A stretch of DNA of 42,114 nt from an uncultured Acidimicrobiales bacterium (GTDB taxonomy: Bacteria; Actinomycetota; Acidimicrobiia; Acidimicrobiales; SZUA-35). The position numbers were made by a program, and so were the translations under genes. Shown here one piece after another: positions 1-18,786 of the stretch. The notes under the pieces were generated by a model. It was given only the letters and a program-made list of their open reading frames with translations, searched no databases and was not told the origin of the DNA. Positions within the stretch are counted from its first letter, which is position 1. The number at the start of each line of letters is the position of its first letter. The stretch lies in contig CAKZXA010000055.1 in assembly GCA_937922045.1 (NCBI GenBank), forward strand, positions 1 through 42,114, given 5' to 3'.

Positions 1-54
1 GTGTCGTAGTGGCACCGAATCGCGCCAACTTCCGACTCAGGTCGCCGTCAGAGA

Positions 55-5909: not shown

Positions 5910-7394
5910 CTAGAGATCCCCACTCTGTGCTTGGTTACGCACAGTCTTTTCCAGAGCCATCACGTGGTTATAGATCTGCGAACGCTCTTTCATAAGGGCA
6001 GAAATTTTGTCGCAGGCGTGCATCACGGTGGTGTGATCGCGGCCGCCGAACTCGCGAGCGATGTGGGGGAAGCTCAGATCGGTGAGTTCCCGAGTGACGT
6101 ACATCGCCATCTGCCGAGCGATCACGAGGGGTCGACGCCGAGACTTGCCGATGAGTTCATCCATCGGGAAGCCGAACTGGTCGACGGTGGCGTCAAGGAT
6201 CATCTGCACCGTGATCGGGCGCGGCTGGCGGTCGGCGATGAAATCACGCAGCACCTGTTCGGCCAGAGCCTTGTTCATGGCTTGGCCGGTGAGGTTGGCG
6301 TAGGCGGTCACCTTGTTCAGGGCGCCCTCGAGCTCACGGATGTTGTTGGTGATGTTGGCGGCGATGAATTCGCTCACGTCGGCCGGTAAGTAGTAGCCAT
6401 CGCGCTCGGCCTTCTTTCCGAGGATGGCCATACGGGTTTCGATGTCGGGCGGTTGAATATCGACCAGGAGGCCCATCATGAACCGACTCTTCAGCCGCTC
6501 CTCCAGCGTGGGGATGGCGTCTGGCGGGCGATCCGAGGACAACACGATCTGACGGTTGGCGCCGTAGAGGTCATTGAAGGTGTGGAAGAGCTCCTCTTGG
6601 AGCCGGTCCTTGCCTTCGATGAACTGGATGTCATCGACCAGGAGCACATCGATCTGGCGATAGCGCCGCTTGAAGTCGTTGCCCGACGAGTTCTTGATCG
6701 AATCGACGAAGTCGTTGAGGAAGGTTTCGGTCGAAACGTAGAGAACCTTCTTTTGTGGCTCCAGGTCGTTGATGAAGTGCTGGATGGCACGCAGGATGTG
6801 GGTTTTTCCTAGGCCGGCGCTGCCGTAAATAAAGAGAGGGTTGTATGAACCACCTGGACGTTCTGCCACCGAGAGGGCGGCGGCGACGGCGAAACGATTC
6901 GAAGGGCCGGTCACGAAGTTCTTGAAGGTGTAGCGCGTGGCTGAGTTCAGACCGCCGGGAGCCACTGCTGGATCGAGTGAGCCCGTCCGGCCATTGTCGC
7001 CGACCGGTGATCCGCCACCGTTCATGGCCGGTTTGATCGAGGTTGCCGATGAGCTGCTCGTCGATTCGGCCGCGGCACCAGCTTCAGCAGCGCCAACCGC
7101 TCTGGATCCGGTGTCGCTCGTCGTCTCGTTTTCGCTGTCGAAAAGGGTGGGGACGGTGAGTTCGAATTCGACGTCGAGTTCTTGGCCGGCTGCTTCGTTC
7201 ACGGCGTCTTCGACGAGGGGACGGTAGCGACCGTCGAGCTTGTCTCGGATAAATCCGTTTGGCATGCCCAGAATGAGTCGTTCCGAGGTCAGCTCGACCG
7301 GGGCCAGCTGGGCGAAGGTACTTTGCCAGACACCATCGGAGACTTGACTACGAAGAAGATCGGCTGCGTTGGTCCAGACTTCTTCGGCGTTCAC
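5910..7394 (-). CDS. dnaA: Chromosomal replication initiator protein DnaA
   Basis: Origin-binding AAA+ initiator. The 494 residues show all four domains: helicase-contact domain I (about 1-82), a low-complexity serine/glycine/alanine linker (about 85-150), the AAA+ core with Walker A GSAGLGKT at 191-198 and Walker B LLVDDI at 251-256, and a C-terminal DNA-binding domain with the signature GGRDHTTVMHA near 450-460. The start is GTG, with a GAGGGA Shine-Dalgarno-like sequence just upstream. Origin-like DNA lies on both sides of the gene. Expect autoregulation through DnaA boxes in its upstream gap. Confidence 0.98.
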   Translation of the reverse strand: MNAEEVWTNAADLLRSQVSDGVWQSTFAQLAPVELTSERLILGMPNGFIRDKLDGRYRPLVEDAVNEAAGQELDVEFELTVPTLFDSENETTSDTGSRAVGAAEAGAAAESTSSSSATSIKPAMNGGGSPVGDNGRTGSLDPAVAPGGLNSATRYTFKNFVTGPSNRFAVAAALSVAERPGGSYNPLFIYGSAGLGKTHILRAIQHFINDLEPQKKVLYVSTETFLNDFVDSIKNSSGNDFKRRYRQIDVLLVDDIQFIEGKDRLQEELFHTFNDLYGANRQIVLSSDRPPDAIPTLEERLKSRFMMGLLVDIQPPDIETRMAILGKKAERDGYYLPADVSEFIAANITNNIRELEGALNKVTAYANLTGQAMNKALAEQVLRDFIADRQPRPITVQMILDATVDQFGFPMDELIGKSRRRPLVIARQMAMYVTRELTDLSFPHIAREFGGRDHTTVMHACDKISALMKERSQIYNHVMALEKTVRNQAQSGDL

Positions 7395-7690
7395 CTGAGC
7401 GAGTCCCTCGTAAGCAGCGAATAAGAGCCGACTCGAAGCCCGGAAAGCTGGGCGAGAGCTTGGAGAGAAGGCTGCGTATAAAGCTGTGTGTTTCGGTCGA
7501 ACATCAAGATCTGTGGGTTAGTTGTGGATAAGACAAAGAGGGCGAGAGACGAGTGTCTTCTCGACGCGTACTTTGTGTGTAGTCCGGCGTTGGATCATTG
7601 GTTGGGCGAATGCTTACTGCTCCCCACTCGTACAACTGGACGAGTGAAGAAATGGAGCACCGGTGAGTCTTCCAGCAAACCTTCTCCCCA

Positions 7691-7742
7691 TTTCCCACAG
7701 GGTTTTCCACAGAATCCCCAGGCTATCCCCAGAGTTGCCCCA
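7691..7742 (+). repeat. Row of DnaA-box-like CCCCA/CCACA repeats
   Basis: Successive nine-base sites TTTCCCACA (7691-7699), TTTTCCACA (7703-7711), AATCCCCA (ending 7720), CTATCCCCA (7723-7731) and GTTGCCCCA (ending 7742). Ends are spaced 12, 9, 11 and 11 bp. Only the second is a consensus DnaA box; the others could be low-affinity sites in a filament-supporting array. Confidence 0.5.
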
Positions 7743-7796
7743 GAGTCTCCTTCTATGTGGTCACTCGAGTTCAGTCGTCCGCACACCACATGACGA

Positions 7797-7832
7797 ATAA
7801 TTCCAGAAATGTAGTTACATCGATGGAATTAT
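7797..7832. repeat. AT-rich 36-bp near-palindrome
   Basis: Outer arms ATAATTCCA (7797-7805) and TGGAATTAT (7824-7832) enclose an inner pair ATGTA (7809-7813) and TACAT (7816-7820). Only two 3-bp internal stretches and the central 2 bp fail to pair. It stands out as AT-rich in GC-rich DNA, near DnaA-like sites, and could be an unwinding element or an operator. Confidence 0.65.
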
Positions 7833-8118
7833 GGATCAGTGGTGTGATAAAGTCATTGGGTTCGAGCTGTGGGTAAATGAACGCTAGCACGCTCTGTGCG
7901 AGTACCCCACCTGTGCTGTGGAAAAGCTCGTGGACACCCCTAGTCTGAAGACTGCAAGCGGCATCACCGTGGATTAGCACGGCAGTGTCGCCTACCGTTG
8001 ATGCGTCGTTATCGCCACCGGCAGAGAGATCTTCACGGTCCCTCTTCACGTCGGGAAGGGTCGAATCCGAAGCGCATCGAGTCAATGACTTCCTTTTTCC
8101 TGCTCGGGAGAGCTCGTC

Positions 8119-8253
8119 GTGAAACGTACATTTCAACCTAACAATCTCAAGAGGGCGCGCAAGCATGGCTTCCGCTCTCGCAAGGCCACCGCAGGCGGTC
8201 GTGCCGTACTGAAATCCCGTCGGGCCAAGGGTCGTCACCGCCTTAGTGCGTGA
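8119..8253 (+). CDS. rpmH: 50S ribosomal protein L34
   Basis: The 44-residue basic protein [17 protein letters not shown]...RLSA is a textbook L34 of the large ribosomal subunit. It is read from a GTG at 8119 with a purine-rich GGGAGAG just upstream, and stops at 8251-8253. The TGA overlaps the GTG start of rnpA (GTGA), so the two are translationally coupled. It is the first gene of the plus-strand rpmH-rnpA-yidD-yidC-khpB-rsmG group. Its promoter lies in the dnaA-rpmH gap, so expression may be tied to origin state. Confidence 0.97.
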
Positions 8254-11976: not shown

Positions 11977-12047
11977 AGGGCTCGGTGTACCGGCTACCCT
12001 CGGTTGGTAGGTTACACACACGCACTTCCGACCGAAGGAGTTGGGGA

Positions 12048-12869
12048 TTGTCCGGAACCGTAGTTTCAGAGGCGACTAACCCCAAGAGGGAATCCGATGG
12101 TGCGCGCCTGATGGCGGTCGCCAACCAGAAGGGCGGCGTCGGCAAGACGACGACGTGTGTCAACCTGGGCGCGGCTGCCGCCGAGATCGGGCACCGCGTC
12201 CTCATCGTTGATCTAGACCCGCAGGGTAATGCCAGCACAGGACTTGGCATCAACCCTCGCACCCTTGAATCGTCGATGTACGACGTGCTGCTCCACGATG
12301 TTCCGATGGATGATGCCATCGAGGCAGTGGCGGTACGAAACCTCTTTCTTGCGCCGGCCAACCTCAACTTGGCTGGAGCTGAGATCGAGTTGGTACCGGC
12401 GTTCTCTCGGGAGATGCGCCTGAAGAACGCGATCGCTAAAATTCGCGATGATTACGACCTGATTCTGATCGATTGCCCGCCATCGCTCGGCCTGCTGACG
12501 GTGAACGCTTTGGCCGCGGCGTCCGAAGTTCTGGTCCCGATCCAATGTGAGTACTACGCACTGGAGGGGCTCGGCCAGCTCTTGCGAAACGTTGAGCTGG
12601 TGCAGCGCAACCTGAACGCCGATCTGCATCTTTCGAACATCGTGCTCGTGATGTTCGATGCCCGCACCAACCTGGCTTCCCAGGTGGCGACCGAGGTACG
12701 AGAGCACTTTGGCGACCTGGTTTGCAACACGGTCATTCCGCGCACGGTGCGGCTTTCAGAGGCCCCGAGTTTCGGCCAACCGATCACCGTTTTCGACACG
12801 GCATCACGCGGCGCCCAGTCGTACCGCGACCTGGCGCTCGAGGTAGCCGGTGAGCCCAAGCGGAAGTGA
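12048..12869 (+). CDS. parA: Chromosome partitioning ATPase ParA (Soj)
   Basis: Deviant-Walker ATPase that moves ParB-parS complexes and so segregates chromosome origins. From the chosen start it has 273 residues with KGGVGKT at 28-34, the DLDPQGNASTGLG motif and the DLILIDCPPSLG Walker B region. The frame stays open up to a GTG at 11985, but the TTG at 12048 has a GAAGGAG ribosome site exactly seven bases upstream, so I choose it. The gene overlaps parB by 20 bp and follows rsmG. Confidence 0.95.
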   Translation: MSGTVVSEATNPKRESDGARLMAVANQKGGVGKTTTCVNLGAAAAEIGHRVLIVDLDPQGNASTGLGINPRTLESSMYDVLLHDVPMDDAIEAVAVRNLFLAPANLNLAGAEIELVPAFSREMRLKNAIAKIRDDYDLILIDCPPSLGLLTVNALAAASEVLVPIQCEYYALEGLGQLLRNVELVQRNLNADLHLSNIVLVMFDARTNLASQVATEVREHFGDLVCNTVIPRTVRLSEAPSFGQPITVFDTASRGAQSYRDLALEVAGEPKRK

Positions 12870-13878
12870 ATCCGAGGATCAAGGAGTCGGTCCGAGCCTG
12901 AGCGACCTGCTGTCGAATCGAACGGTGTCGTTGGAGACGTCTGCTCCGGTGGATGCTCCCGGCGATGCAGTGCCTGGGGAGAACTACCCGGGTAATCTGA
13001 CGGGCGACGGGTTACATCAGCGTGATTTGGCCGATCTGACGCCCTCAAATTATCCACATGGGGTTGTGGATAATTTGCCGATTGCGTCGATTCAGCCCAA
13101 TGAGTTCCAGCCGCGCTCAAGCTTTGATGAGGAATCTCTCGCCTCGCTGACCGAGTCTGTGCGCGCTCTTGGGGTCTTACAACCAATTCTGGTTCGCCCT
13201 CGCGGCGACCACGGCTACGAGCTGATCGCCGGGGAGCGGCGCTGGCGGGCTGCTCGCCGAGCCGGGCTTGAGACCGTGCCTGGCATCGTTCGGTCGATCG
13301 ATGATCAGCGCTCACTCGAAGAAGCCATCGTGGAGAATCTCCACCGGGCCGACCTCAACCCGATCGAAGAGGCCGCGGCCTACAACCAGCTCGTTGAAGA
13401 CTTCGCCTTGACCCAAGATGAGGTGGCCCGCCGCGTCGGCAAGTCTCGCTCGGCGGTAGCCAACACCATGCGATTGTCGCAACTGTCGGGAGCGATCCAA
13501 CGTCTCATCGTTGACGGGAGTTTAAGCGCGGGCCACGCCCGGGCGCTCCTGTCGATCGATGATCGCGGTCGTCAGCGGGAGCTGGCGTTGAAGGTGGTCG
13601 AAGATGGGTTATCGGTTCGCGAGGTCGAGGATCTGGCTCGGTCCGAAACGCAGGCTCGACGTCGGCCCAAGTCGTCAGCCAAGACGGGTGCGAATGCAGC
13701 TGGCGCGGCCCGGAAAAAATCGGTGGCCGCGCTTGAGATCGAACGACTCCTCGGCGATCGCTTTGATACACGCGTCGAGGTTCTTGAGAATTCTGGCACC
13801 GGGCGGATCGTCATCAACTTCGCCGACAACGACGACCTCGACCGCATCTTCCATTTGCTGAACGGTCTGGACTCCTAG
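12850..13878 (+). CDS. parB: Chromosome partitioning protein ParB (Spo0J)
   Basis: parS-binding CTP-dependent clamp. The product has 342 residues, with a long N-terminal region (1-75). The ParB/Srx core then starts at LPIASIQPNEFQPR, with the CTP-binding GERRWRAARRAG at 128-139 and ENLHRADLNPIEEA near 162. The helix-turn-helix LTQDEVARRVGKSRSAVAN lies around 190-210, and the C-terminal dimerisation segment ends in DRIFHLLNGL. The start is GTG, overlapping parA. The N-terminal linker is encoded by DNA holding two inverted DnaA boxes. Its probable target is the perfect parS 2 kb downstream. Confidence 0.96.
   Translation: MSPSGSESEDQGVGPSLSDLLSNRTVSLETSAPVDAPGDAVPGENYPGNLTGDGLHQRDLADLTPSNYPHGVVDNLPIASIQPNEFQPRSSFDEESLASLTESVRALGVLQPILVRPRGDHGYELIAGERRWRAARRAGLETVPGIVRSIDDQRSLEEAIVENLHRADLNPIEEAAAYNQLVEDFALTQDEVARRVGKSRSAVANTMRLSQLSGAIQRLIVDGSLSAGHARALLSIDDRGRQRELALKVVEDGLSVREVEDLARSETQARRRPKSSAKTGANAAGAARKKSVAALEIERLLGDRFDTRVEVLENSGTGRIVINFADNDDLDRIFHLLNGLDS
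13046..13077. promoter_or_regulatory. Inverted pair of consensus DnaA boxes inside parB
   Basis: TTATCCACA (13050-13058) and TGTGGATAA (13065-13073) face each other across six bases and sit in a perfect 13-bp inverted repeat (13046-13058 and 13065-13077). They encode ParB residues 66-76, SNYPHGVVDNL, in the variable linker before the conserved core, so protein conservation does not readily explain them. Confidence 0.8.
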
Positions 13879-14636: not shown

Positions 14637-14725
14637 ACCCCCACACAGATACAAAACATCCCCCAAGATCCACTGAATACCCCCGAATAGACCCATCTAT
14701 ACCCAGACATACCCATTTGATACCA
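14637..14725 (+). repeat. Phased ACCC repeat array A
   Basis: Exact ACCC cores start at 14637, 14679, 14691, 14701 and 14711, with degenerate copies at 14651, 14660, 14670 and 14722. Average spacing is about 10.6 bp, one helical turn. The better copies read TACCCA (14700, 14710). The array fills the gap between the converging nitroreductase and SCO6745-type genes, where no promoter is needed. Confidence 0.7.
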
Positions 14726-14736
14726 TCACTATGTGG

Positions 14737-15597
14737 TTAGGCTGGCAGGGTCGGTGGTGGCCATCGGTCGGGAACTGCGCCTGTTTCGACAAGGGTTTGG
14801 ACCAGAGGGGTCATGAAACCGATGAGCTGCTGCTGTTCGTCGGGTCCGAGGTGCTCCAGTGGGCCCGAGGCGAGCTGATCGGTACGAGTTTCGATCTGCC
14901 GTCGTAGCTCAGATCCATCCGCTGTGAGAACACCATCGGGCTCGACAAGGCCGCGAGTTGCGAGCCGCTGGTGGGCAGCATGCCAATCGTCGGTCGACCA
15001 TCCCCGGATCTTCTGAATGACCGATTGGCTGGCCACACCCTTACCAGCCAACAACACATGGCACTCAATGCCATCGATATGTTCAGCGAGCAACGCCATG
15101 GCGTGTCCGTCGCCCCGAAACTCACGCCACAACGTAGCCGCGTGCCAGAGTCGTTCGAGAGGCGGGTCAGGTGTTGGCAGCGCAGCGTGGGCGGCAAAGA
15201 GTGTCCGCCCAGCTGGCGACTGATTGGTGATGCTGGGCAGGGCGAGAGCGGCGGCCGCGGCTGCTTGTTGCTCGACAGCTCCTCCGGCGGCACCGAAAAC
15301 TCGGTGCAGGGCGGCGCCTACTGCGTCGTCCCGAACGGCAAGCACCTCGGATGGCTCAAGGATGTCCCAGGCGGCCGGAATCGCCTGTTCGACCAAACTC
15401 GGGGCGAAATTGTAGAAGGTGGCCACCACAGCACCGCTTCCGACCCGCCCCATCGGTGCGGAGCGGTAGGCGAGGTAGGCGTGCCAGTAGTGGTTGAGGC
15501 CGTGGTCGCGGAAGACCTTCATCTCTGGCGCGTAGTAGGTGAGGTTGTGAAAGACACTGAACAGGTGAGCGAGCTCTCGGATCGCAGGTCTGGCCAT
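14737..15597 (-). CDS. SCO6745-family protein
   Basis: The N-terminus HNLTYYAPEMKVFRDHGL...YLAYRSAPMGRVGSGAVVATFYNFAPSLV (here shown in two parts) matches the actinobacterial SCO6745-type family of about 280 residues. The family has no established biochemical role; some annotations describe a C-terminal winged-helix-like region, compatible with the helical segment from about residue 200 (DDWHAAHQRLATRGLVEPDG). The 286 residues are full length. The gene stands alone, bracketed by phased arrays A (downstream) and B (upstream). Array B lies about 90-205 bp before its start and might affect its expression. Confidence 0.8.
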   Translation of the reverse strand: MARPAIRELAHLFSVFHNLTYYAPEMKVFRDHGLNHYWHAYLAYRSAPMGRVGSGAVVATFYNFAPSLVEQAIPAAWDILEPSEVLAVRDDAVGAALHRVFGAAGGAVEQQAAAAAALALPSITNQSPAGRTLFAAHAALPTPDPPLERLWHAATLWREFRGDGHAMALLAEHIDGIECHVLLAGKGVASQSVIQKIRGWSTDDWHAAHQRLATRGLVEPDGVLTADGSELRRQIETRTDQLASGPLEHLGPDEQQQLIGFMTPLVQTLVETGAVPDRWPPPTLPA

Positions 15598-15689
15598 ACG
15601 TCAAGATATGCGACGGAGCCGAGGTGTGCCGCATCCACGTGTCTCTCTACCGGTGTGTCCCCAGTCCTAACCAGAAGAGCTCGAAATAT

Positions 15690-15803
15690 ACCCTGCTATA
15701 CCCATTTAGGACCCTTAGCTTACCCACTGTATACCCACTACATACCCACTTTGTACCCACTGTGTACCCCTCCTTATCCACTTCTTAGACCCTGCGACCC
15801 CCA
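15690..15803 (+). repeat. Phased ACCC repeat array B (best copy)
   Basis: ACCC cores start at 15690, 15700, 15711, 15722, 15733, 15744, 15755 and 15766: eight in a row at 10, 11, 11, 11, 11, 11 and 11 bp. A TATCCA variant follows at 15775, then ACCC at 15789 and 15797. The four central copies read TACCCACT. Bases between the cores vary, so the array conserves a motif and a phase rather than being a simple tandem duplication. Confidence 0.85.
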
Positions 15804-15892
15804 TTGCATGCGTTGTGGTGTCTATGGCAGAGCGGATGGCCAGCGTGGGTAGCCAGGTGGACGGAGAGTCTGAGAGATCTACTGCGTCACGG

Positions 15893-15908
15893 TGTTTCAC
15901 GTGAAACA
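15893..15908. promoter_or_regulatory. parS: parS centromere site for ParB
   Basis: TGTTTCACGTGAAACA, a perfect 16-bp palindrome identical to the bacterial parS consensus. It is the only such site I see in the window. It lies 2 kb downstream of parB, in the gap between arrays B and C. ParB would load here and spread, and ParA would move the complex. Confidence 0.97.
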
Positions 15909-16291
15909 ACGCATGGGGATCGTGTGAGACCAGCGTGTTGTGTCCACACGCTTTCCACACGCTCAGGTACGTTGCTGGGGGCCGGACACCGTCTGGCCTT
16001 CTCCAACGCTCTTGGACTGGCCCAGGCGAGGATTGGGTTGCGGATGGATCAGCTTCCGCCTAGCTCGCCTCCACCACGGGGAACCTCAGAGCCTGGCAGA
16101 GCCTGGCAGAGGCTGGCCAAGCCCTCGGCGGCAACTGTGACCCTGTGGTTGCATTCATTGGGCCTCTAGGGGCGTACAGCGGCGCCGTGCGGCTGGCTGA
16201 AATATCCCGGAGGTGGGCGCACATGGCGGGTCGGGTATCAGCGAACAGCGAAAAGGCAACAGCGAACAGGTAACAGAAGCCTTAAGTGGGG

Positions 16292-16366
16292 ATACCTAGG
16301 GGCAAATCGCAGGGCGGTTGGTTATGTTCGGGTGATCAGTGGGTCTCTATGGGTATGATTTGGGTA
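16292..16366 (-). repeat. Phased ACCC repeat array C (minus orientation)
   Basis: On the plus strand GGGT cores end at 16333, 16344, 16354 and 16365 (11, 10, 11 bp). Weaker copies end near 16292, 16303, 16315 and 16322. On the minus strand these read TACCCA-like, the reverse orientation to arrays A and B. The array abuts the 3' end of the small tandem-RHH-like gene. Confidence 0.65.
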
Positions 16367-16389
16367 AGCTAGGCCCGAGGTGGTTGCGC

Positions 16390-16926
16390 CTACTCTTCGT
16401 CTTCGAGGAGCTCGAGCGTGAGGAGAACCGCGACCGTCTCAGACCGGTTCCAGCCACGGGAATGACCAAGGCGCGTGATCTTGTCGAACTCACTATCGGA
16501 GATCGAGAGCCGGAGCCGTTCGCGGCCCTTCGAGACAAGTCGGCCACCGGTTCCGCCGTAAATTGAGTCGGCATACTTGCGGTAGGCGCGCATAACGACG
16601 TCGGCTGGATTGATTCCGGTTTCGTTCAAGGCCTCGGCGACGGGAAGCGGGATAGAAAGCTCGCGCCGCTTTCGGCTGATCGTGGCCGTTCCGGCCCTAC
16701 CGCTGGTGGCAGAGCTCGCTTCAGCGGCAGGTACTGCCTCGACCGACTGCGGTTTCGACGGTGGCGGGTTTGAATCGAGGCTGGCGACATCAGCGGTGGC
16801 TCGTTCGGGCTCTGGCTCGGGTGCCGCGCTACCGCGACGTCGACCAGTGCCACGGCTGCCCTTGTAATCAGAAGGATCGGCGATGGAGTTGAGGCCTCGG
16901 GCTTTTCCCAGCGTGCGCTCGCTCAT
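16390..16926 (-). CDS. Small ParA-partner protein, possible tandem ribbon-helix-helix DNA binder
   Basis: A 178-residue protein that I do not recognise as a named family. Residues 1-85 are low-complexity, rich in A, E, P and S. The C-terminal half looks like two similar strand-helix-helix units: RRELSIPLP plus helices at about 88-121, and ERLRLSISD plus helices at about 136-175. One chain could thus form a ribbon-helix-helix pseudo-dimer. The ATG start overlaps the ParA-like stop (ATGA), so the two are translationally coupled, as plasmid parA/parB-type pairs often are. This suggests a centromere-binding adaptor, with the phased arrays as candidate sites. The fold is inferred from pattern only. 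Confidence 0.65.
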   Translation of the reverse strand: MSERTLGKARGLNSIADPSDYKGSRGTGRRRGSAAPEPEPERATADVASLDSNPPPSKPQSVEAVPAAEASSATSGRAGTATISRKRRELSIPLPVAEALNETGINPADVVMRAYRKYADSIYGGTGGRLVSKGRERLRLSISDSEFDKITRLGHSRGWNRSETVAVLLTLELLEDEE

Positions 16927-17795
16927 TGGGCTGCTCCTTGGAGAAGACGGTCGGCGAGGGCGATGCGGTCGTCGACCTCGTCTGCTAGTTCGAAGAATTC
17001 ACGCGCCAACTCGCCTAAATTGGCGGGGATTTTGATCTTTCCACGAATTTGGTTGGTGATTGAGACGGTTGCGGCCCACTCGGCGTATTCGTGGAGGAAA
17101 AGGCCTGCCTTACGGCTGTCGTCGTAGGCTGCGCCTGCTTCCCTGATGATCGTCTGGAATGGATCGGCGACGCCGGCCAAGATGTCAGCGATATCTTTCT
17201 GGGCTTCAACCCGCTTACGGGGTGCACCAGCTGAAATCTTCATGAGGACCACGCCGAGGAGCAGGATGTCGGAATGCAGCTCCTCAAGCTCACTCGCCAA
17301 GACTCGTAGACCTTCTATATTGTCGACGCCAGCGCTGGTCGGTACCAGTAGGTACTTGCCGGTTTGCATGGCCATGTCGGCCAGGCGTGACGAGCCCGAT
17401 GGCGGAAGATCGAAAACAACCCGGTCGTAACGCCCTGAACTCATCAGTTTTTCGAAGGGCAAGGCGAACGCATCGGCTGGGTTTGCCGCTGTAACCAGGT
17501 GATTCGAGAGGGTCTTGGTGTGCCGCCCGGCGGCGACGATCTCGAGATTGTCACGGGCTCGCACGGTGGTGAGTTCGTCGCCGTACATGATGGCGTCCAT
17601 CAAGTGGCGTCCATCACCGTGCTGCATTGGGTCGAGCCCGACAACCTTCGTCGCCGACGCCTGCATGTCGAGATCAGCCAGGAGGATTCGCTTGCCCTCG
17701 CTGGCCCAGATGCCGGAGAGTTGCGTGGCGAGCGTGGTTTTGCAGCTCCCACCCTTGCCGATTCCTACCACCACTGAATCAGGGATCGTTCGCAT
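16923..17795 (-). CDS. Second ParA-type (MinD/ParA) ATPase
   Basis: P-loop ATPase of the ParA/MinD group, 290 residues from the chosen ATG. The deviant Walker A is KGGSCKTT at 14-21, keeping the signature lysine K14 and P-loop lysine K19 but with S-C where V/T-G is usual. LADLDMQASAT and RVVFDLPPSGSSR follow as the Walker A' and B regions. It is too divergent from the parA at 12048 to be a recent copy. In-frame TTG (17846) and ATG (17825) starts exist but lack ribosome sites and would put coding sequence inside array D. It is coupled to the downstream RHH-like gene. A partition-type role is inferred. Confidence 0.85.
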   Translation of the reverse strand: MRTIPDSVVVGIGKGGSCKTTLATQLSGIWASEGKRILLADLDMQASATKVVGLDPMQHGDGRHLMDAIMYGDELTTVRARDNLEIVAAGRHTKTLSNHLVTAANPADAFALPFEKLMSSGRYDRVVFDLPPSGSSRLADMAMQTGKYLLVPTSAGVDNIEGLRVLASELEELHSDILLLGVVLMKISAGAPRKRVEAQKDIADILAGVADPFQTIIREAGAAYDDSRKAGLFLHEYAEWAATVSITNQIRGKIKIPANLGELAREFFELADEVDDRIALADRLLQGAAQ

Positions 17796-17829
17796 GGCAA
17801 CCACTCTAGTCGACGAAGTGGGCATGATG

Positions 17830-17907
17830 GGGTCGAGAATGGTCAAAATGTGGGTAAGCCATGGTCCATAGTTGTGTGTTGTGGGTGTGATTGGGTATAT
17901 AAAGGGT
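17830..17907 (-). repeat. Phased ACCC repeat array D at the parA-like promoter
   Basis: GGGT or GGT cores on the plus strand end at 17833, 17843, 17855, 17865, 17886, 17896 and 17907, with a degenerate position near 17876, so steps are 10-12 bp. The motif reads TACCCA on the minus strand, as in array C. It covers the gap between the ParA-like gene and the divergent lipoprotein gene, so binding there could autoregulate both. Confidence 0.7.
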
Positions 17908-17946
17908 CGATGAGCGTTCAGACAACAACTGGACTACAAACGAGGT

Positions 17947-18786
17947 ATGAGCCGTCTCGCCTTCCTCCGTCTTCTCGTCCCGTTGCTCGCGGGAGCCTCG
18001 CTCATCTCGGCCTGCAGCGATAGTGAGGAGTCGTTGCCGGCCCCATCCGAGACCTCTCTATCTACGAACTCACTATCCACGAACTCGACCGCCGACGAGA
18101 CGTTGACCGACGATGATGTAGACGCCACCCCAACGACGACCGCGGCCGAAGTTACGACAACCGCGGGCGTCGATGCTTCGACCACCGGGTCCGTCGAGGA
18201 TGCCACCACCCTTCCCGGCGAAGACTTCCCCGGTTTCGTCGACAATGGTTCTGTGCTCTCCGTCGTAGGCGTGGCCCATGATGACGTGCTCAACGTTCGT
18301 TCCTTTCCCGGCCAGGATGGTCAGATCGTTAGCTCGGCCGCGCCGGATGAAGATGGTCTGATTGCGACCGGGCGGGGTCGATTGCTACCCAACTCCGTTT
18401 GGTATGAGGTGATACACAACGACGAGATCGGATGGGTCAGTGCATCGTTCGTTGCGTATACAGGTGTGACCCAGGACGTCACTGCAGAGTTTCTCAATGG
18501 TGAGCGGCCAGCCAAGGCGGAGACGATGCTGGCCTTGGGTGCGTTGGTGGCGCAGGGATTCAGCTCTGAAGATCCGCCGTCGCGCCAGGTGCAATCGGGC
18601 CCGGCCTCGGTGGGAGACCTCGGCGAGATCACCTACGATGTCATCGGTCTGGGCGACGATGCACTCACCGGCTACCGACTCCATGTTTTCGCCACACCTG
18701 ATGACAACGGTGAAACCTTCACCCTGAAGAGCATCGAGCAGACGATCCTGTGCACGCGCGGCGAAACGAACGGGATCTGCCGCTAG
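17947..18786 (+). CDS. SH3-domain lipoprotein
   Basis: Predicted lipoprotein of 279 residues. A signal peptide with two arginines ends in the lipobox LISAC, with C23 as the lipidated cysteine. Residues 25-95 are a Thr/Ser/Asp-rich linker. A bacterial SH3-like domain (about 103-170) shows VLNVRSFPGQDG and WYEVIHNDEIGWVSASFV, the pattern used in cell-wall-binding SH3b domains. The C-terminal part (about 180-279) is unassigned and has two cysteines near the end (CTRGETNGIC) that could form a disulfide. It is divergent from the ParA-like gene, with array D in the shared upstream region. Confidence 0.8.
   Translation: MSRLAFLRLLVPLLAGASLISACSDSEESLPAPSETSLSTNSLSTNSTADETLTDDDVDATPTTTAAEVTTTAGVDASTTGSVEDATTLPGEDFPGFVDNGSVLSVVGVAHDDVLNVRSFPGQDGQIVSSAAPDEDGLIATGRGRLLPNSVWYEVIHNDEIGWVSASFVAYTGVTQDVTAEFLNGERPAKAETMLALGALVAQGFSSEDPPSRQVQSGPASVGDLGEITYDVIGLGDDALTGYRLHVFATPDDNGETFTLKSIEQTILCTRGETNGICR

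Follow-up and report, generated by a model that had tools for sequence, protein, structure and literature searches.

A probable second chromosomal partition system of the ribbon-helix-helix type, with helically phased ACCC arrays beside parS, in the Acidimicrobiales

In the current analysis we have examined the origin region of an uncultured Acidimicrobiales bacterium, in a stretch of 42,114 nucleotides (contig CAKZXA010000055.1; the window). Besides the chromosomal ParA and ParB this stretch encodes a second ParA-type ATPase (ParA2), coupled to a small protein with a predicted tandem ribbon-helix-helix (RHH) domain, and four arrays of ACCC cores are placed around a perfect parS site. With a probability of about 0.75 these elements make up a second chromosomal partition system of the type-I RHH class beside parS, with the helically phased arrays as its centromere. 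The RHH protein very probably binds the arrays, and the system probably partitions or positions the origin region. An earlier note on this DNA had proposed an origin-linked accessory partition system with the arrays as centromere; the co-occurrence of gene pair and arrays among relatives and the uniqueness of the arrays within their own genome support this proposal. The word accessory may understate the role, because the ParB of this clade is without the usual ParA-activating motif. The elements of the proposed system are as follows.

14637 to 14725, plus strand: array A, exact ACCC at 14637, 14679, 14691, 14701 and 14711
15690 to 15803, plus strand: array B, ten exact ACCC cores at 15690, 15700, 15711, 15722, 15733, 15744, 15755, 15766, 15789 and 15797, eight of them consecutive at 10-11 bp
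15894 to 15907, no strand: parS, a perfect 14-mer and the sole perfect site in the assembly, in the gap between the mirrored arrays, as the earlier note had it
16292 to 16366, minus strand: array C, exact cores at 16330, 16341, 16351 and 16362, forming an exact chain from 16330 to 16365
16390 to 16926, minus strand: tandem-RHH protein of 178 residues, presumed to bind the centromere, recognised from orthologues, alignment, model and fold matches (N-terminal helix, 16879-16905; tandem RHH, 16396-16674)
16923 to 17795, minus strand: ParA2, a deviant Walker ATPase (KGGSCKT) of 290 residues from ATG 17795, Pfam AAA_31 (5.3e-19, scored on a longer frame of 307 residues)
17830 to 17907, minus strand: array D, exact cores at 17830, 17852, 17883, 17893 and 17904, upstream of the ParA2 gene

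Phased ACCC arrays and the gene pair

The listing of exact cores bears out the four arrays at the positions and on the strands first described, and no ACCC of opposite orientation is found inside any of the four spans. Four of the five cores of array A are chained (14679-14714), and by eye its gaps hold only variants such as ATCC. Array C has its cores on the minus strand as described, with no exact core in the part of its span from 16292 to 16329. The longest chains with steps of 10-12 bp comprise 8 cores in B, 4 each in A and C, and 3 in D. Simulated windows (300, first-order Markov) contain 0.05 chains of three or more each and none of four, against the row of eight cores in array B.

The assembly containing the window comprises 4,878,135 bases in 128 contigs. 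The phased triplet ACCC-6..8-ACCC-6..8-ACCC has 22 matches in it, 11 in this region and 11 elsewhere, and the reversed control pattern has 11, equal to the count elsewhere. The genome-wide surplus of phased triplets is confined to the array region, and the three assembly-wide matches of a TACCC triplet all lie in array B. Similar arrays at many unrelated sites of the genome, which had been named as a sign against the proposal, are not seen.

The RHH gene has been found in 16 of 61 relatives. The pair of parA2 and RHH genes is present in 16 of the 39 genomes of the family, belonging to four of its 11 genera, and all 16 genomes of these four genera with a parB found also carry it. G003 and G004 (same genus), in which neither parB nor the pair was found, are counted for neither side, and the scan of G440 and G441 covered only the pair. 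Among 395 genomes of the class the RHH protein is matched in three, which are its own genome, a member of the family and a contig that bears a relaxase, and a search of viral_contigs with the RHH alignment returned 41 pattern matches with no true relative among them. The 16 pair-bearing genomes group together (support 0.43) in a tree of ParA and ParB from 42 genomes; one acquisition followed by retention would most simply explain the history of the pair.

The arrays go with the pair among the genomes examined. Distances between same-strand ACCC words were counted in 16 locus pieces from 15 other pair-bearing genomes (44.6 kb) and in 39 pairless loci from 38 genomes (501,439 bases, G034 entering with two loci). 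The pair-bearing pieces have 46 and 49 word pairs at 10 and 11 bp, 53 at 21 bp, 38 and 26 at 31 and 32 bp and 34 at 42 bp, with a further peak at 52-53 bp, against an expectation of about 3-4 per distance, whereas the distances in the pairless loci are flat. For distances of 8-60 bp a period of 10.5 bp fits best, and for longer ones a period of 10.7 bp; a weaker signal is still present at 120-200 bp. With on-phase and off-phase distances fixed after viewing the full distance table, the pair-bearing pieces give counts of 246:13, the pairless loci 165:157 and the 247 kb flanking the pair-bearing loci 71:75. When 136 tetramer classes are ranked by phase excess in 20 locus pieces, the window among them, ACCC is first in 13, second in four, third in one, thirtieth in L102, where there is a repeat, and 109th in L042. 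Where two cores are 21-22 bp apart, the empty slot between them is occupied by an ACCC with one mismatch in 55% of cases (n=42), against a background of 10%.

By a simple count criterion the arrays are clear in 13 of the 16 pair-bearing genomes, and G009 adds arrays near parS. The predicted co-occurrence of phased cores with the pair in relatives is thus seen in 14 of 16 genomes. It is not clear in G015 and G031, and to that extent the pair without phased cores nearby, which the earlier note would have taken as a sign against its proposal, may occur. The top phased tetramer of G015 is ACCA (5 on, 0 off), perhaps a shifted core.

The phased repeats of the relatives lie in the same region as the operon. 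In 12 loci 205 of 229 in-phase ACCC words are outside the genes marked by us and 24 inside, or 10.6 against 1.2 per kb, non-coding meaning here outside marked genes and not outside every possible gene. The TACCC-like triplet has three matches in the 15 other pair-bearing genomes, all adjoining parB or the pair, and six in 19 pairless family genomes, none on a contig with a parB found. Three pairless contigs (G012:C108, G012:C242 and G026:C157) have mutually similar TACCC triplets at 11 bp, off the parB contig.

The cores are asymmetric, the base frequencies around them being without palindrome, and their direction is organised around parS. Polarity was counted in 14 loci turned so that parB reads forward, L037 entering with only a parS-like site of two mismatches and G015 and G031 being left out. 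There are 42 in-phase words in plus and 12 in minus orientation to the left of parS, and 45 plus and 174 minus to the right. Among clusters of at least three words, all six on the left are plus and 28 of 34 on the right are minus (Fisher 0.0002; 0.014 without the window and the repeat-bearing L102, the right-hand count of which is inflated by a 46-bp repeat). On either side the ACCC words mostly face parS, and the mirrored layout first described in the window recurs in other loci, with exceptions; the switch of strand sometimes occurs to the right of parS (L105, L035, L103). The GGGT-rich 46-bp tandem repeat is found at two contig ends, L102 (about 6060-6280) and L032 of G009 (about 17790-17948), and may be an array whose expansion broke the assembly.

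The ATPase and the tandem RHH protein

A ParA-like ATPase is paired with an RHH-like protein to the right of parS, as described before; the ATPase matches AAA_31, and the two genes overlap by 4 nucleotides. The sequence of ParA2 is 76-86% identical to 13 orthologues, and the motif KGGSCKT is invariant across the 14 sequences, which represent 14 of the 16 genomes (L090 and L092, cut by crude start finding, are out). The common start of the orthologues, M-R/H-T/S-I-P/A, favours ATG 17795 over the mechanically assigned TTG 17846, which is probably wrong. Array D then lies at least 34 bases upstream of parA2 and is wholly intergenic as had been claimed, which does not hold with the start at 17846. 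It is presumed to be an operator as well as part of the centromere. A promoter scan of 15590-18000 gave a single match, away from array D, against a chance expectation of 0.7.

The partner protein has no match in Pfam or NCBIfam, and hence is without ParB_N or HTH_ParB; the Pfam family RHH_1 matches one of the 16 members of its family (E 0.027). The alignment of the 16 sequences contains 34 invariant columns, including ARGLNSIA at positions 9-16, and 12 of the first 18 residues are invariant. The length varies from 171 to 373 residues owing to the middle part, the C-terminal part being conserved. An AlphaFold2 model has a low-confidence helix at residues 8-16, a low-confidence linker and two strand-helix-helix units (85-123 and 135-177) with block means of the predicted local distance difference test (pLDDT) of 87-97, in agreement with the earlier guess of a tandem-RHH-like protein. 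The protein has three parts: a peptide conserved at the N-terminus, a linker of variable length predicted to be disordered, and a tandem RHH domain, likewise predicted. The best solved fold match is a chain of the F-plasmid relaxosome (Z 9.8, root-mean-square deviation 2.8, 93 residues), followed by DndE (Z 7.2), AvtR (Z 6.8) and single-chain Arc (Z 6.2). Sequence searches of the PDB returned only NikR (E 0.7) with the RHH alignment, and nothing of RHH kind with the distant relative from L101.

These features suggest the following mechanism. The tandem RHH would act as a pseudo-dimer with two different strands, for which a polar site would be natural, and would bind each asymmetric ACCC in one direction. 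All units would lie on one face of the helix, and contacts between neighbours would give rise to a polar nucleoprotein rod. The N-terminal peptides, on long tethers, may stimulate nucleoid-bound ParA2-ATP and so move or anchor the origin region, and the array before parA2 would autoregulate the operon. ParB would still load at parS between the arrays, perhaps driving ParA poorly alone, and the RHH/ParA2 machine may supply or share the motor function.

ParB, parS and the origin region

The surrounding region carries the elements of a chromosomal origin, with dnaA at 5910-7394 (minus strand) and the following features.

7395 to 8120, no strand: likely oriC, the region upstream of dnaA, 726 bases with a cluster of DnaA-box-like sites
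11985 to 12869, plus strand: chromosomal parA, Pfam AAA_31 (1.4e-63)
12850 to 13878, plus strand: chromosomal parB of the helix-turn-helix (HTH) type, Pfam ParB_N, HTH_ParB and ParB_C
12889 to 12912, plus strand: ParB N-terminal peptide GPSLSDLL replacing GLG[KR]GLxxLI, by motif comparison

The arrays are about 6.5-10 kb from the likely oriC. The interval between parB and a thioredoxin-reductase gene contains a nitroreductase gene, an SCO6745-family gene, the four arrays, parS and the parA2-rhh operon on the minus strand. The SCO6745-family gene (14737-15597) lies between arrays A and B and has no match above 60 bits in L028-L082.

The position of parS differs between the two groups of genomes. 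Counting sites with one mismatch or none, parS lies downstream of parB in all 15 pair-bearing genomes having one beside parB, and upstream of parA in 13 of the 14 pairless family loci having one, the exception being L058; in G006, G007 and G009 only perfect sites were searched. The pair-bearing assemblies have one perfect parS in 11 of 16 cases and none in five.

ParB also differs. The motif GLG[KR]GLxxLI, sought in all reading frames across the 750 bases preceding the ParB core with S also allowed at the K/R position, is present in none of the 16 pair-bearing and in 33 of 38 pairless genomes (p 1e-9). In 14 of the 16 an L..LL peptide takes its place, by eye without K or R at the usual position in 13 of them. 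Substitution of the arginine in this motif of Myxococcus xanthus ParB (R13A) moderately reduces ParA binding, almost abolishes ATPase stimulation and leaves segregation unsupported (PMC12462528). The N-terminus of the RHH protein in this genome, LGKARGLNSIA, resembles by eye the ParB motif GLGKGLGSLI of pairless relatives. In ParA no well-covered column separates 16 pair-bearing from 26 pairless sequences at 85%. A genus beside the pair-bearing group (G021, G029, G033 and G036; loci L049, L054, L057 and L060) has a shortened motif, GIHSLIP, in its ParB and is without the RHH pair; no perfect parS is found in these four assemblies, and the partition system of this genus looks altered too.

Known systems, alternative explanations and significance

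Type-I RHH partition is, to our knowledge, otherwise known from plasmids. The present system adjoins dnaA, parA and parB here and lies near parB in most relatives, so it is not plasmid-borne like the known members. A literature search covering few subscription journals found no paper on such a system, in line with the earlier note, which knew of no described system with this layout. The type Ib systems (ParF/ParG/parH of TP228, delta/omega of pSM19035, pCXC100) likewise have a ParA-type ATPase, a small partner with a C-terminal RHH and a centromere of short repeats upstream of the operon, comparable to arrays C and D that flank the operon here; their partner has a flexible N-terminal tail that stimulates ParA (PMC5016525), to which the conserved N-terminal peptide and the low-confidence linker may correspond. 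They differ in that the present system is chromosomal, beside oriC and parS, with a tandem RHH in one chain and mirrored arrays of 10.5-bp helical phase at several places. The ParB of plasmid pCXC100 is said to bind spaced ACCA words.

The nearest chromosomal analogue found is SegAB of the archaeal Sulfolobales, a ParA-like protein and an RHH protein with sites upstream of segA and in clusters near the locus (PMC12284271, PMC9178275). The SegB site is a 13-bp palindrome, mostly inside genes and scattered, whereas the core here is an asymmetric ACCC, phased and at one locus, on a bacterial chromosome together with parA, parB and parS; the pair was therefore not assigned to SegAB. ParMRC of R1 and pSK41 shares an RHH protein that assembles helically on tandem repeats at the operon promoter (PMC5016525), but its motor is the actin-like ParM and not an AAA_31/ParA-like ATPase. 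The F-plasmid protein TraY, which as a monomer adopts the fold of an RHH dimer and binds DNA as a train of three (PMC12117103), resembles the predicted single-chain pseudo-dimer. Chains E-G of the F relaxosome, which include the best fold match, are taken as TraY because that paper describes three copies; unlike the present protein, TraY is a conjugation accessory protein with no ParA partner. Canonical chromosomal ParABS is kept at the same locus with parA, parB and parS, differing in the absence of the usual ParA-activating motif from ParB and in the position of parS downstream of parB. The pair itself is distinct from it, the 178-residue partner being without ParB_N and HTH_ParB and parB being a separate gene.

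Plasmid relatives of ParA2 have also been identified: 210 records at E 1e-8, mostly actinobacterial and all below 60% identity, the best listed being at about 30-33%. In several of 18 plasmid stretches the next gene encodes an RHH-like end joined by a linker to an N-terminal peptide. The RHH-like end is by eye doubled in L108, L109, L113 and L122, and others are shorter or without it; RHH_1 matches the L108 protein at 1.2e-5. The RHH protein itself has no match at E 1 in 72,556 plasmid records, and its nearest relative outside the family is encoded on a contig with a TrwC relaxase. The proposed second system is probably derived from an actinobacterial plasmid. Plasmid pAL1 (L106, about 1950-2455) has a GCGC array upstream of parA with many steps of 10-11 bp and the strongest phase test, likely a plasmid centromere of similar design with another core.

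Among the other explanations, the one that survives best is that the RHH protein is an autoregulator only, the arrays being its operators and the pair serving a job other than partition, such as the positioning of other cargo. In its favour, many RHH proteins act as repressors, relatives of ParA position other cargo as well, and one array lies directly before parA2. This explanation is nevertheless improbable, since the arrays span kilobases, flank parS with a polarity organised around it and offer many more sites than an operator requires, and in L036 an array is found upstream of parA.

That the pair is a left-over partition module of an element inserted near oriC, with no chromosomal function, would agree with the plasmid cousins and the relaxase-bearing contig, but is very unlikely in view of its presence in all 16 genomes of the four genera with a parB found, of the 34 invariant RHH columns and of an identity of 74-86% between ParA2 of the window and those of four genera, against 65-89% for the chromosomal ParA in the same loci.

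The DnaA box has a consensus like TTATNCACA, and the cores could be regarded as degenerate, low-affinity boxes of a DnaA filament, the main alternative in the earlier note. The 11-bp steps of array B, box-like sequences (TTATCCACT at 15774 and TTACCCACA at 17849) and eight sites with at most two mismatches in the 792 bases 15598-16389 would fit such filaments. The arrays do not follow this consensus: sites with at most one mismatch are absent from A and C and occur once each in B and D. The region upstream of dnaA is richer, with 15 sites of at most two mismatches, four of them of at most one. The near-box TTATCCACT is present, yet it keeps the register of the array as a degenerate unit (ATCC, 10 bp past core 15766); the empty slots vary around ACCC and not around the box, and the 39 pairless loci are without phased arrays. 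DnaA arrays are therefore disfavoured, with hardly any likelihood left. Two copies of TTATCCACA, a perfect DnaA box, occur within parB at 13050-13073 in opposite orientation, 15 bp apart. Least likely of all is an action through DNA shape or G-quadruplexes, for which the three-G tracts of GGGT at short intervals on the other strand could be cited, since the phase persists across empty slots and out to 120-200 bp, as for recognition of one face of the duplex, and the arrays accompany the gene pair.

Several observations weigh against a second partition system with the arrays as its centromere. ACCC phasing is not clear in the pair-bearing G015 and G031, the polarity of six right-hand clusters is reversed, and the pairless locus L064 has one isolated chain of three cores. 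Within the pair genes of G006, G008 and G010 there are 18 in-phase sites; for L038, L039 and L040 the counts are 5, 8 and 5, those of L039 and L040 in the RHH gene, and part of the array may thus be made up of coding sequence. Among 17 plasmid cousins a general phase test is at or below 0.05 in four only, and the pooled counts are without 10.5-bp peaks. The RHH domain is hardly recognised by sequence libraries, and its best Foldseek E-value is only 0.003. The pair-bearing genomes being one clade, one event may underlie the pair, the arrays, the parS position and the change in ParB, and the p-values count related genomes as though they were independent. Nor are loss of the motif and presence of the pair strictly linked: a lysine is retained in the ParB peptide of G031 (LSKGLSDLL), and five pairless genomes without the full motif keep only GI[GH]SLIP. 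These five adjoin the pair-bearing group in the tree as drawn, so that decay of the motif may predate the arrival of the pair.

Within the preferred reading of a second partition system, a further and doubtful step is that the RHH/ParA2 system has taken over from ParB. In such a handover ParB would have kept parS and lost its usual ParA-activating peptide, and the N-terminus of the imported RHH protein would activate ParA2, perhaps also the chromosomal ParA. Our estimate for it was lowered slightly because of the lysine in G031. If true, one composite centromere with built-in symmetry would arise from parS-bound ParB and two polar RHH rods that run towards each other.

HTH-ParB is considered the only partition type on bacterial chromosomes, according to a 2026 paper (PMC13245405). 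A conserved RHH system near oriC and beside parS in four genera would, if true, be the first known exception to this rule. It would also offer a natural experiment, as the ParB of the same clade is without the usual ParA-activating motif, whose arginine is needed in Myxococcus for ATPase stimulation and segregation (PMC12462528). Two questions would become testable, namely whether the segregation motor of a chromosome can be shared or exchanged, and in what way a polar, helically phased centromere is read by an RHH protein.

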